NCBI GenBank assembly: GCA_015146655.1
Contig: VKHL01000092.1
Location: 47,587 to 111,586 of the forward strand
Direction: 5' to 3'
DNA from: Ochromonas danica
Taxonomy: Eukaryota; Sar; Chrysophyceae; Chromulinales; Chromulinaceae
DNA: 64,000 bases
Positions 31,810 to 36,702 of this stretch are shown in pieces. Below the pieces are notes generated by a model. The model searched no databases and was not told the DNA's origin. It saw only the letters and a program-made list of their open reading frames with translations. The first letter of the stretch is position 1; every line of letters begins with the position of its first letter. Both the position numbers and the translations under genes were made by a program.

Positions 31810-34800
31810 ATGAAGAATAATAACAACTACCACAATGTTGTCAGAGTCATCCTTTGCTTTCTGCTCTTACAGCAGATCATGGTCTTAGGAAATCTCTTTC
31901 CTACCAGTCGATGGTTGAAAACCCCTTCTATCTCATCAGAGAAGAAGAAGCAGCAGCCATCATCATCTTCATCTTCTAGTATCTTTCACAGATGCTTATC
32001 ACTTCGTGGTGGAGCAACAACTGGAGGAGGAGGAGGTGGTGGTGGTGAACAACAAGAAGGAAATAAGATTCAAGGTCATTGCATTGGTATTGACTTGGGA
32101 ACCACCTATAGGTAAGTCCACTCTCTCTCTCCCCCACCCCCTCTCGCTCTCTTCATAGACTCCTTATTAACCTTCCCTGTTACCTGCTCTCTAGTTGTGT
32201 TGCTGTTTGGAAGAATGGACGAGTTGAAATCTGTCCTAATGAACAAGGTAATCGTATTACACCTTCTTATGTCGCCTGGACACCAGGTGAAGGACAACGA
32301 TTAGTAGGAGATGCTGCTAAGAATCAAGCAGCTTCTAATCCTTTCAACACTGTTTTCGATGTCAAAAGATTGATTGGACGTAAATTCTCTGATGCTTCCG
32401 TACAACGTGATGCAAAGTTATTACCTTATAAGATTAATTCTGGTCCTGGTGATAAACCATTAGTTACTGTTCGAATGGGTAGTAGTAATGAAGAGAAAAC
32501 TTTCGCACCAGAAGAGATTAGTGCGATGGTATTACGTAAGATGAAAGAGACAGCTGAAACTTATCTAGGCGAGAAGATAGTTCATGCTGTTGTTACTGTT
32601 CCTGCTTATTTCAATGATGCTCAGCGTCAAGCAACGAAAGATGCTGGGCAGATTGCTGGATTGAAAGTGGAAAGAGTTCTCAATGAACCAACTGCCGCAG
32701 CCATTGCTTATGGATTGGATCGTGGTAAAGCGAAAGAAGAGAATATCCTAGTTTTTGATTTGGGAGGTGGTACCTTTGATGTCACATTGCTGACGATTGA
32801 TAATGGTGTCTTTGAAGTCAAAGCTACAGCTGGTGATACTCATCTTGGTGGTGAAGACTTTGATCAACGTTTGATGGACTTCTGTATCGCACAGTTTAAG
32901 AAGAAGAATGGTATTGATATTAGTGGTGATAGTAAAGCTATTGCTCGCTTAAGAAGACAGTGTGAGACTGCCAAGAGAACCCTTTCTACACAGACTTCCA
33001 CTCAGATTGAGGTGAGTTAACGATCTTGTATATGTTGTGTTGTATATCTTGTATATTTTGGACTGGTCGGAGTGGGTGTCGATTTTCACAGTGCGGCCCC
33101 CTCTGTACCCTGCGCTGCACGCCTAGGCTGTTCCTACGGGAACAGTCACTTCATGTGGTATAGGTGCTAGCAGAAAGTTCAAGATTGATTGTGTATATGA
33201 CTTGCTTCTGTGCACAGGCTGGGCGTTGTAGGCCTCTGGCCTCCGTCTGGCCAAAACTCTATATTCCACCTCTTGGTCGCGTCCTCATGGGCAATGCGAA
33301 GTTTGGAGAAAACCATAGAGTGTACATATATATATATACTTGAATATGTTATATACTTGAATATGTTATATGCTTGTGTGAAACTGTCCTTTGTTGTTAT
33401 TTTCTGAGCTCATCATTTTTGTCATTGTTGTTTCATTAGATTGAATCTCTCAGTCAGGGCATTGATTTCAGTCAAACTATCACTCGAGCTAAATTCGAAG
33501 AGTTGAATATGGATCTCTTTAAAAAGACTATCGCTCCAGTAAAACAAGTATTACAGGATGCTGATATGCAGAAGGCTGAGATTCATCAGATTGTACTGGT
33601 TGGTGGCTCGACTCGCATTCCCAAGGTGCAGGAACTGCTCTCCGAGTTCTTTGATGGCCGTGCATTGAATAAGGAAATTAACCCCGATGAAGCAGTTGCC
33701 TATGGTGCAGCAGTGCAAGGTGCTATTCTTTCCGGTGCATCTGACCAGACTAAAGAGATTCTTTTGTTGGATGTATCGCCACTCTCTTTGGGCATTGAGA
33801 CTGCAGGAGGAGTCATGACTAAATTGATTAATCGCGGAACAACCATTCCAACAAGGAAAACGCAAGTATTCTCCACCTTTGCAGACAATCAGCCTGGTGT
33901 TCTTATCCAAGTGTACGAAGGAGAGCGTTCCATGACAAAAGATAATCGTATGTTGGGTCGCTTCCAATTAGATGGTCTTCCACCTGCTCCAAGAGGTGTT
34001 CCTCAAATTGAGGTCTCATTTGATGTGGATGCAAATGGAATTCTTCAGGTACTAACATTGTGCATACTATCTGTATATCTTGTATATTGGACTGGTCGGA
34101 GTGGGTGTCGATTTTCACAGTGCGGCCCCCTCTGTACCCTGCGCTGCACGCCTAGGCTGTTCCTACGGGAACAGTCACTTCATGTGGTATAGGTGCTAGC
34201 AGAAAGTTCAAGATTGATTGTGTATATGACTTGCTTCTGTGCACAGGCTGGGCGTTGTAGGCCTCTGGCCTCCGTCTGGCCAAAACTCTATATTCCACCT
34301 CTTGGTCGCGTCCTCATGGGCAATGCGAAGTTTGGAGAAAACCATAGAGTGTACATATATATATATACTTGAATATGTTATATGCTTGTGTGAAACCATT
34401 TCTTGGCTTCTGTTATCTGACTGTTCTCAAATGTATTGTTCTCAGGTTTCTGCTCAAGATAAGCTATCGGGAAAGAGCCAGTCCATTACCATCACCTCTG
34501 ATAAAGGTCGCTTAAGTGAGGATGAAATCGAGCGCATGGTTAAGGAAGCGGAAGAACATGCAGAAACCGATCGTCTTGCAAAGGAAAGAGTTGAAGCTCG
34601 CAATCAATTAGAGTCTTATCTTTATGGTTTGCGTAGCACTGTCCAGGACAGTTTGAAGGACAAGCTTTCTGAAAGTGATAAGGAAAGCATTCTTAAAGCA
34701 GTCAACGATGGTTTGCACTGGGTGGAAGAGCATCCATCAGCGACTAAAGAGGAGTATGATGAAAAGAAACAGGAGGTAGAGGCCATTGCTAGTCCTATTA

Positions 34801-34904
34801 TTACTCAGGCTTACAAGGGCGCTTCGCCCTCTTCTAATGATAATGACGATCATGACCCTGAGGATGATTCATCTTCTGGTCCCACTGTCGAAGAGGTTGA
34901 TTGA
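31810..34904 (+). CDS. Hsp70 chaperone with N-terminal leader and C-terminal EEVD
   Basis: Four exons (31810-32111, 32195-33011, 33440-34048, 34446-34904) give 728 residues. Residues about 10-27 ([18 protein letters not shown]) are a signal peptide, followed by a 70-residue Lys/Ser/Gly-rich spacer. The ATPase domain has [32 protein letters not shown] and [10 protein letters not shown]. The substrate-binding domain has [19 protein letters not shown] and ends EEVD. There is no KDEL/HDEL. EEVD is typical of cytosolic-type Hsp70, yet the leader implies entry into the ER route. This fits a chaperone of the periplastid compartment, the relict endosymbiont cytosol. An ER or secreted protein is the alternative. 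Two introns carry a nearly identical element. Confidence 0.93.
33041..33384 (+). repeat. Intronic element, copy 1
   Basis: This 344-nt segment takes up most of the second Hsp70 intron (33012-33439). From 33060 to about 33352 it is identical by eye to copy 2. It differs only by two extra T bases near its start and a 17-nt tandem duplication (ACTTGAATATGTTATAT) near its end. It is GC-richer than the intron flanks and holds strong hairpins. No terminal inverted repeat or clear target-site duplication is visible. Confidence 0.93.
33128..33145 (+). other. RNA hairpin with UACG tetraloop in the intronic element
   Basis: CTGTTCC and GGAACAG pair over seven perfect base pairs, closing a C(TACG)G loop, the very stable UNCG class. 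The same hairpin is present in copy 2. A second stem lies just upstream (GTGCGGC at 33091-33097 with GCTGCAC at 33114-33120, one G-U pair). A perfect ten-base palindrome CTGTGCACAG lies at 33208-33217. Confidence 0.7.
34072..34396 (+). repeat. Intronic element, copy 2
   Basis: This 325-nt segment lies in the third Hsp70 intron (34049-34445), in the same orientation as copy 1. The intron ends outside the element (first 23 and last 49 bases) are not similar to those of the other intron. The shared unit therefore sits inside both introns rather than being the whole intron. Confidence 0.93.
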
Positions 34905-35309
34905 GACTGAGTGTCCTCGTTAATGCAAGCCTTCAACCCATCCCTCCCCACCTTGTTTTGTACAATTTCCCTGTAAATAGTTCTCTAATTTAACATCATT
35001 TTCTTCTATTATCCACCCATCCTCTTTCTCAACTATGAGTTAAAAATTGTATTCTAACAGCTCGCTCACACTATATTGTCAACCGGTCCACAGTGTTGGA
35101 TCTCCTGGATCTGCAATCTGGATCTAACAACCATACATCCCTCACCTCCTTCATGAGAAAGTCACTCTTTTGCACTTTTATCTCGTAGATGCGCGTCTTA
35201 ACGGATGACGCCATGACAGAGGATTTGCATCGTAGCTGAGCTCCACCCCAGTCTGTCTTGTTGTTCGGGATTAATACAGTAGTAGTTAGTGACCATTACT
35301 TGATCTCCA
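34905..35309. other. Intergenic region
   Basis: This is the Hsp70 3' region and GPAT upstream region. It holds two ATCTGGATCT-type words near 35100-35127 and no gene. Confidence 0.5.
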
Positions 35310-36702
35310 ATGAAGTGCTTTCAAGGTATTCTAAGGACGCTGCTCTGTTTCTCCATGCTTCTTCTGGCCAAGAAGTGTGCTGGCTTTCTCTTTACTCGAG
35401 GAGGGAGCAGCAGATGGCATGGTTCTCATGGTCTAACGGTGATGACAGCCTCACTTGATGCTAAAGCTCAGATCTACGAAGAAATAAAGCGAGAGATCAA
35501 GTTTGCAGTGGCTAAGCAACAAGTTCCACCTAGTGAAGACTCTCCTGCTTCTCAGTTTGGATCAGTCTTGAGTGACTTCCTGGATGAATACACTGTGTAA
35601 GTACATCTCACATGAATATTCTTGTCCGTTGAAGTGACCATATAATATGATATTGCTTAGGTCTAATATTGAGGCAGGTGAGGATCCAGAAGTATTCAAG
35701 AAGAATGTCATGGTCTTCCTCAAAGGTGTTCAAGAGGCTGTCACCAATCCCTACCAATTCAGTCCTTACCATCAAGCAGTTCGCACTCCCTTTGACTTCT
35801 ATCAATGGTACAAGGCTTTGTAGGACTAATCTTTGCTCTCTCTTGACAAAACTGATGGAATATCTTGGCTGTGTGTTAGGGGTAATGATTTCTTGCGACC
35901 CTTGGTCATTGCTGAACAATCTCGTCTTGTGGGACGTGAACAAGCAGAGAAACTACAAGCCTTCCTTGCTCAAGGACACAATGTTATCATTCTTTCAAAC
36001 CACCAAACAGAGGCTGATCCACAAGTGATCTCTATCTTGTTGGAAAGAGAAGGTCTCTCTGACCTAGCGGAGAAGATTGTCTTCATTGCAGGTCATAAAG
36101 TGACCAATGATCCTGTTGCTATCCCCTTTTCTATGGTATTCAATCACTTGTCATTGTCAGTAGTCCTGTATTCATTAACTCTATTGACACTACCCTTATT
36201 GCTCTCATAGGGTCGCAATTTGATCTGCATCCATTCGAAGAAGCATATCAAGAATCCCCCCGAAGATATTCCTCGCAAACAGGCACAAAATTTGCAGTCT
36301 ATGCAAGCTCTCTCATCTTTGCTAGCAGAAGGAGGAAAGGTCTTCTGGGTTGCTCCCAGTGGTGGACGCGATCGCCCCAACGAGCAGGACCGCTTTGTAG
36401 TGGCTCCTTTTGATCTTAAAGCGTTGGACATGTTCAAGCTTCTAGCCATGCAGAGTCCCAATCCAACTCATTTCTTTCCCATGGCTATGTATACCCACAA
36501 ATTAGTTCCTCCACCCAAGATGGTTTCCAGTGGACTTGGTGAAACTCGCAGTGCCAAGAGAGGTGCAGTTAGTGTTGCCTTTCTTCCTGAGACTGATGGC
36601 CTTGGAGGTCTAAAAGACAAAGAGTTCGCACAGGACTTGCAGCATTCCGTAGAAGTTGCTTATGATGACCTTTCTGCCTGGCATGATGCCCACCAGAAGT
36701 GA
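35310..36702 (+). CDS. Plastid glycerol-3-phosphate acyltransferase (plant ATS1 type)
   Basis: Four exons (35310-35596, 35661-35819, 35880-36135, 36211-36702) give 397 residues. The leader ILRTLLCFSMLLLAKKCAGF is a signal peptide ending in an aromatic, followed by a Ser/Arg stretch. The soluble plastid GPAT fold is clear: NDFLRPLVIAEQSRLVG, then the acyltransferase motif ILSNHQTEADPQVI (H-x-x-x-x-D), IVFIAGHKVTNDPVAIPFSMGRNLICIHSKKH, and FWVAPSGGRDRP. The enzyme acylates glycerol 3-phosphate from acyl-ACP in the stroma, the first step of plastid glycerolipid synthesis. All four splice joins keep the frame. Confidence 0.93.

Follow-up and report, generated by a model that had tools for sequence, protein, structure and literature searches.

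Host gene and the repeated unit

The window under analysis, a stretch of 64,000 nucleotides of the Ochromonas danica assembly, carries on its plus strand an Hsp70 gene (31810-34904) made up of four exons located at 31810-32111, 32195-33011, 33440-34048 and 34446-34904, the last including the stop codon. Joining of the exons returned a single frame of 728 amino acids, open from the ATG to the stop; the initial annotation had likewise placed two copies of one element within introns of a single Hsp70 gene. Exons 2 and 3 matched the Pfam family PF00012 with E-values of 1.3e-124 and 2.2e-88 respectively, and all three introns showed GT..AG ends. Intron 1 is 83 bp long, while introns 2 (33012-33439, 428 bp) and 3 (34049-34445, 397 bp) host copy 1 and copy 2 of the repeated unit and would measure 84 and 72 bp without it.

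The encoded protein shows an N-terminal hydrophobic leader, after which comes a long stretch of low complexity, rich in serine and glycine (31810-32111) and located before the ATPase domain, and it ends with an EEVD C-terminus. Its nearest paralogues were the products of L012 (66% identity, DDEL end) and L010 (59% identity, EEID end). From these sequence features we infer an Hsp70 of the ER or of the periplastid compartment, perhaps a symbiont-derived protein in the latter case.

The two copies of the repeat, both in plus orientation, occupy 33041-33384 (344 bp) and 34072-34396 (325 bp). Their global alignment showed two indels and no substitutions. One indel, close to the left end, is of 2 bp (TTTT/TT); the other, close to the right end and just 3' of the predicted RNA described below, is one 17-bp tandem unit (TATATACTTGAATATGT-like), and this unit occurs twice in copy 1 (33333-33367) and once in copy 2 (34362-34378). 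The longest exact run shared by the copies is 297 bp (33058-33354, equal to 34087-34383) and reaches into the tandem unit, and a second run covers 35 bp (33350-33384, equal to 34362-34396). When aligned by BLAST without the 17-bp gap, the copies were 99.06% identical over 319 columns with one mismatch, and the pair was the longest repeat in a BLASTN self-comparison of the window (E <= 1e-5), in which the next one spanned 113 columns. The coordinates given by the initial annotation were correct to the base, its estimate by eye of about 290 identical bp agreed with the computed run, and its description of the two indels of 2 and 17 bp as the only differences was confirmed by the global alignment. 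As the copies carry two different indels, a duplicated-assembly artefact, at least of the simple kind, is unlikely.

The intron ends surrounding the repeat were compared against 500 shuffles per side, and the score of their local alignment was matched by 48.6% of the shuffles on the left and 80.6% on the right. The ends of introns 2 and 3 are then unrelated, as the initial annotation had also observed, and the duplication of a whole intron, one of the origins it had offered, was discarded on this basis.

At the far left of the window, positions 1105-1216 hold a near-perfect palindrome of 112 bp (inverted self-match of 79.6% over 113 columns) with a sub-threshold match to mir-5595, perhaps a small inverted-repeat element.

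Family match and predicted RNA anatomy

The region 32900-34600 was scanned against 4227 Rfam families, and the top match was RF00045 (SNORA73, corresponding to U17/snR30), found once in each copy on the sense strand with the full model, a score of 21.8 bits and an E-value of 0.0078. The matches span 33122-33329 in copy 1 and 34151-34358 in copy 2. When copy 1 was scanned alone, RF00045 was again the best of the 4227 families (E 0.0016). Over the whole 64-kb window the E-value rose to 0.29 and three microRNA-type families ranked higher; no Rfam family reached its own cut-off anywhere in the window. The gathering cut-off of RF00045 is 74 bits and, as the copies score well below it, they are not automatic members of the Rfam set. 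A chance match of comparable E-value (0.051) was returned at an unrelated locus, and RF00045 also matched below its cut-off in 5 out of 14 control genomes. Given the E-value over the window, the chance match and the low score, the assignment could not rest on the E-value by itself.

The best Rfam E-value of the window (1e-4) belongs to a mir-297 match on the minus strand at 1604-1674, with 44.4 bits against a cut-off of 90, and this match is possibly a simple repeat.

The assignment is carried by the anatomy, since the matched sequence has the defining features of U17/snR30 as these are described in PMC7601244. The predicted RNA covers 33058-33329 in copy 1, about 272 nt, its 5' end being placed from the fold and its 3' end from the ACA box plus three nucleotides; the corresponding segment of copy 2 (34087-34358) is identical letter for letter. 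The 3' hairpin (33256-33321 in copy 1) is closed by a basal stem of 7 bp (33256-33262 with 33315-33321), whose MFE pairs had probabilities of 0.84-0.99 in the fold of 33057-33329. In comparison with the Rfam consensus, three of the seven pairs of this stem are changed on both sides and four are unchanged, none being broken.

The m1-like word AUAUUCC, corresponding to the first seven of the nine letters of m1, lies at 33261-33267 (34290-34296 in copy 2), and the m2 word AAACCAU, matching in all its seven letters, at 33310-33316 (34339-34345). In the predicted 3' hairpin, both words border the internal loop on its basal side, an arrangement described as specific to U17 (PMC7601244). The ACA box at 33324-33326 is followed by three more nucleotides of the Rfam match, and the distance from the top of the internal loop to the ACA is 15 nt (33309-33323), within the published range of 14-16 nt (PMC7601244). 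The tail of m1 departs from the published motif, as it reads AC in place of the UA, UG or UU of Table 1 in PMC7601244, and position 8 is an A where all 14 organisms of that table have a U.

Upstream of the 3' hairpin, the energy fold predicted a 5' domain that is closed and contains sub-hairpins (33057-33182), followed by an internal hairpin, as described for snR30/U17 (PMC7601244); this fold conflicts with the way in which Rfam aligns the 5' portion (model positions 1-107). The candidate H box AUAUGA (consensus ANANNA, 33195-33200) is doubtful, its letters being paired in the predicted fold, and the word AGAUUG, right after the 5' domain, is one letter off the same consensus. We considered and rejected an external AU-rich stem that would close the RNA, as its pair probabilities were only 0.22-0.33 and it would consume the ACA region. 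The fold of the whole copy 2 showed a z-score of -2.46 on the sense strand, with none of 100 shuffles as good, and of -0.78 on the opposite strand, with 19 of 100 shuffles as good.

The specificity of the motifs was evaluated with the pattern AUAUUCC-N30-60-AAACCAU-N5-10-ACA, which occurred at three places in the 31.19-Mb assembly, two of them being the copies themselves, while the reversed control occurred at none. Base composition predicts about 1.5 such places in the assembly; the third one, on contig C6, showed no RF00045 match at E <= 5 and fits that chance expectation. In one 344-bp stretch, counting both strands and before requiring the stem, the expectation is about 1.6e-5, a figure to be read as descriptive because the motif was chosen after the Rfam match had been seen. 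A stricter pattern was found at no place in viral contigs and at 12 places in prokaryote genome contigs, taken as chance occurrences because that collection is large.

Copy number, origin and alternative explanations

The initial annotation had read the unit as a possible mobile element and had suggested searching the genome for dispersed intronic copies. A DNA search of the assembly (31,187,593 bases in 337 contigs) with copy 1 returned two candidates, both corresponding to the known copies. Simple repeats and words of very high frequency are left out by this search, so that the low copy number argues strongly, though not conclusively, against a family dispersed in the genome. The whole-assembly search with RF00045, in which 29 of 954 candidates were scored, did not report the two copies and gave three weak matches of 13.4-14.4 bits.

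These data bear on the idea that a mobile or introner-like element was put into both introns and resembles U17 by chance, which we consider improbable. The introns deprived of the repeat are close in size to intron 1, as if the unit had entered ordinary introns, and the near identity of the copies would denote a recent event. A dispersed mobile family was rejected since only two matches occur in 31.19 Mb; an insertion by retroposition or transposition with target-site duplication was rejected as well, as no such duplication was evident around the copies, their longest shared flank words being 6 and 5 bp, and no inverted repeat pairs were reported in 32000-36000. Moreover, a chance resemblance would have to account for motifs, stem and ACA box placed in the correct order and at the correct spacing. 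Introner-like elements share with this unit the presence of a repeated sequence inside introns; they differ in that here two copies were found, the unit lies within unrelated intron ends and it brings no splice sites. A different H/ACA RNA, a pseudouridylation guide or other, would be just as improbable. The Tetrahymena H/ACA family TtnuHACA7 gave a weak match to copy 1 (E 1.3, 16 bits) that stops at the same 3' position, and plain H/ACA anatomy alone gives a hairpin loop 14-16 nt before the ACA; however, m1- and m2-like words flanking the loop on its basal side are peculiar to U17, and RF00045 outscores TtnuHACA7 in the scan of copy 1.

Finally, the unit might be a snoRNA copy that is dead or in decay, or a piece of intronic DNA that yields no RNA, having been duplicated or gene-converted. 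This is the least probable of the alternatives: the RF00045 score under the curated cut-off speaks in its favour, but the predicted RNA is identical in the two copies with both indels falling in the flanks, motifs and stem are intact, and no better candidate emerged in the assembly from the RF00045 or the motif-pattern search, neither of which was exhaustive. We therefore regard the repeat as very probably consisting of two predicted intron-encoded copies of a U17/snR30 snoRNA, and not of a mobile element. The nature of the unit, predicted here as an H/ACA snoRNA of the U17/snR30 kind, had been missed by the initial annotation.

The identity of the copies extends beyond the predicted RNA on both sides, by 16 bp on the left, including the 2-bp indel, and by 55 or 38 bp on the right, including the 17-bp unit. 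This extension suggests that the copies were made or homogenised at the DNA level, and recently. Recent DNA-level copying or gene conversion between the two introns fits the data, and the mobile family, also among the origins first proposed, is not supported. One intron may have received its copy from the other, by recent segmental copying, or both may have been homogenised by gene conversion.

The assembly also contains plastid-type genes. Three plastid-type DnaK frames, L013 (contig C311), L014 (C202) and L015 (C319), show 61-67% mutual identity, two of them being flanked by rpl3- and rpl4-like frames, and two distinct psbA genes occur on contigs C336 and C289. Owing to the three divergent DnaK frames and the two psbA genes, the assembly may mix several algae, in which case any one of them could be the source of the contig of the window. 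For the D1 protein of L006, the nearest PDB chains were 6jlu and 6j3y, which we take to be diatom photosystem II. On contig C289, a frame of 233 amino acids (L007, 2848-3549) lies beside psbA on the opposite strand and has by eye the look of an intron-type endonuclease.

Comparison with known systems and possible role

The predicted RNA resembles U17/snR30 (RF00045) in the basal-side m1 and m2 of its 3' hairpin, the ACA followed by three nucleotides, the long 5' domain and the internal hairpin. It differs in the AC tail of m1, the ambiguous H box, the 21.8 bits against a cut-off of 74, and the predicted length of about 272 nt as compared with 207 nt in human and 606 nt in yeast (PMC7601244).

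According to PMC7601244, human U17a and U17b reside in two introns of one gene, U17HG, Xenopus U17 occupies all six introns of a ribosomal-protein gene, and in both organisms the intronic RNA is trimmed at both ends from the excised intron. For unicellular organisms the same source, taking yeast as its example, presents snR30 as transcribed by Pol II from a gene of its own. As in human and Xenopus, copies of one predicted snoRNA are found here in successive introns of a single host gene, whereas the host is a protein-coding algal Hsp70. An Hsp70-family host is itself known from vertebrates, where hsc70 carries U14, a C/D box snoRNA, in three introns (PMC7277114). The likeness lies in an Hsp70-family gene with several intronic copies of one snoRNA required for 18S production, while the snoRNA class is different and the lineage distant; the sharing of an Hsp70-family host is presumably convergent. 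Among algae, 72 of 131 snoRNAs of Ostreococcus (O. tauri) are intronic in protein-coding genes (PMC7671301), but the terms snR30, U17 and hsp70 have no occurrences in the main text of that paper. In open-licence PMC articles we found no earlier description of a stramenopile snR30, a diatom intronic H/ACA snoRNA or a diatom U17, nor, judging by titles, of an algal hsp70 snoRNA. The string "U17" appears in a diatom snoRNA paper as part of a transcript name.

On the proposed mechanism, each copy would be a sense-strand intronic H/ACA box snoRNA of the U17/snR30 (SNORA73) kind. After splicing of the Hsp70 pre-mRNA, both introns would be debranched and trimmed from their two ends, the RNA being shielded from trimming by H/ACA core proteins attached to its hairpins. 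By analogy with intronic U17, each round of Hsp70 splicing would yield two U17 precursors. The mature RNA would then pair through m1 (UAUUCCA) and m2 (AAACCA) with rm1 and rm2 in expansion segment 6 of the pre-18S rRNA, and this pairing would enable the early pre-18S cleavages. A role for rm1 and rm2 in ES6 is supported by PMC12095548, and variation in m1 and m2 is reported to be matched by the 18S of the same organism (PMC7601244).

The 18S rRNA was not found in the assembly with two primer-like patterns and one 153-base probe, and a word of a yeast probe was used in its place. This probe, 18S-15, serves for 18S depletion and contains AGCATGGAATAAT (PMC8044721), and this word is also present in the 18S primers of PMC10052501 and PMC10220642. 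Pairing of UAUUCCA of the window with UGGAAUA, the word of the 18S-15 probe standing in for the organism's own 18S, gave 7 bp and -7.4 kcal/mol, as compared with 6 bp and -6.4 kcal/mol for the canonical AUAUUCCUA. Against UAGGAAUAAU, which we take to be the human-type 18S word, the canonical motif was the stronger (-8.1) and the window motif the weaker (-6.7). Because UAUUCCA pairs better than the canonical motif with the yeast-probe word, the odd A of m1 would be well matched to a AUGGAAUA-type 18S. If the unusual end of m1 pairs with a matching change in the 18S, the locus would offer a direct test of snoRNA-rRNA co-evolution.

The reading as U17/snR30 would turn an apparent mobile-intron story into that of a housekeeping RNA gene, one that annotation would miss because it scores so far short of the Rfam threshold. 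As a pair, the copies would illustrate how two introns within one gene evolve in concert in nature, and they would extend to an alga the vertebrate practice of housing a multi-copy 18S-processing snoRNA in the introns of a single host, once more an Hsp70. More tentatively, and as a suggestion that we hold to be rather doubtful, the dosage of U17/snR30, which is essential for 18S processing, might in this unicellular alga with complex plastids depend on how strongly a secretory-pathway, perhaps periplastid, Hsp70 gene is transcribed, with the two copies kept identical by gene conversion. If this were true, Hsp70 genes would have served repeatedly as hosts of snoRNAs in eukaryotes far apart, and ribosome production would be coupled to the demand for chaperones.
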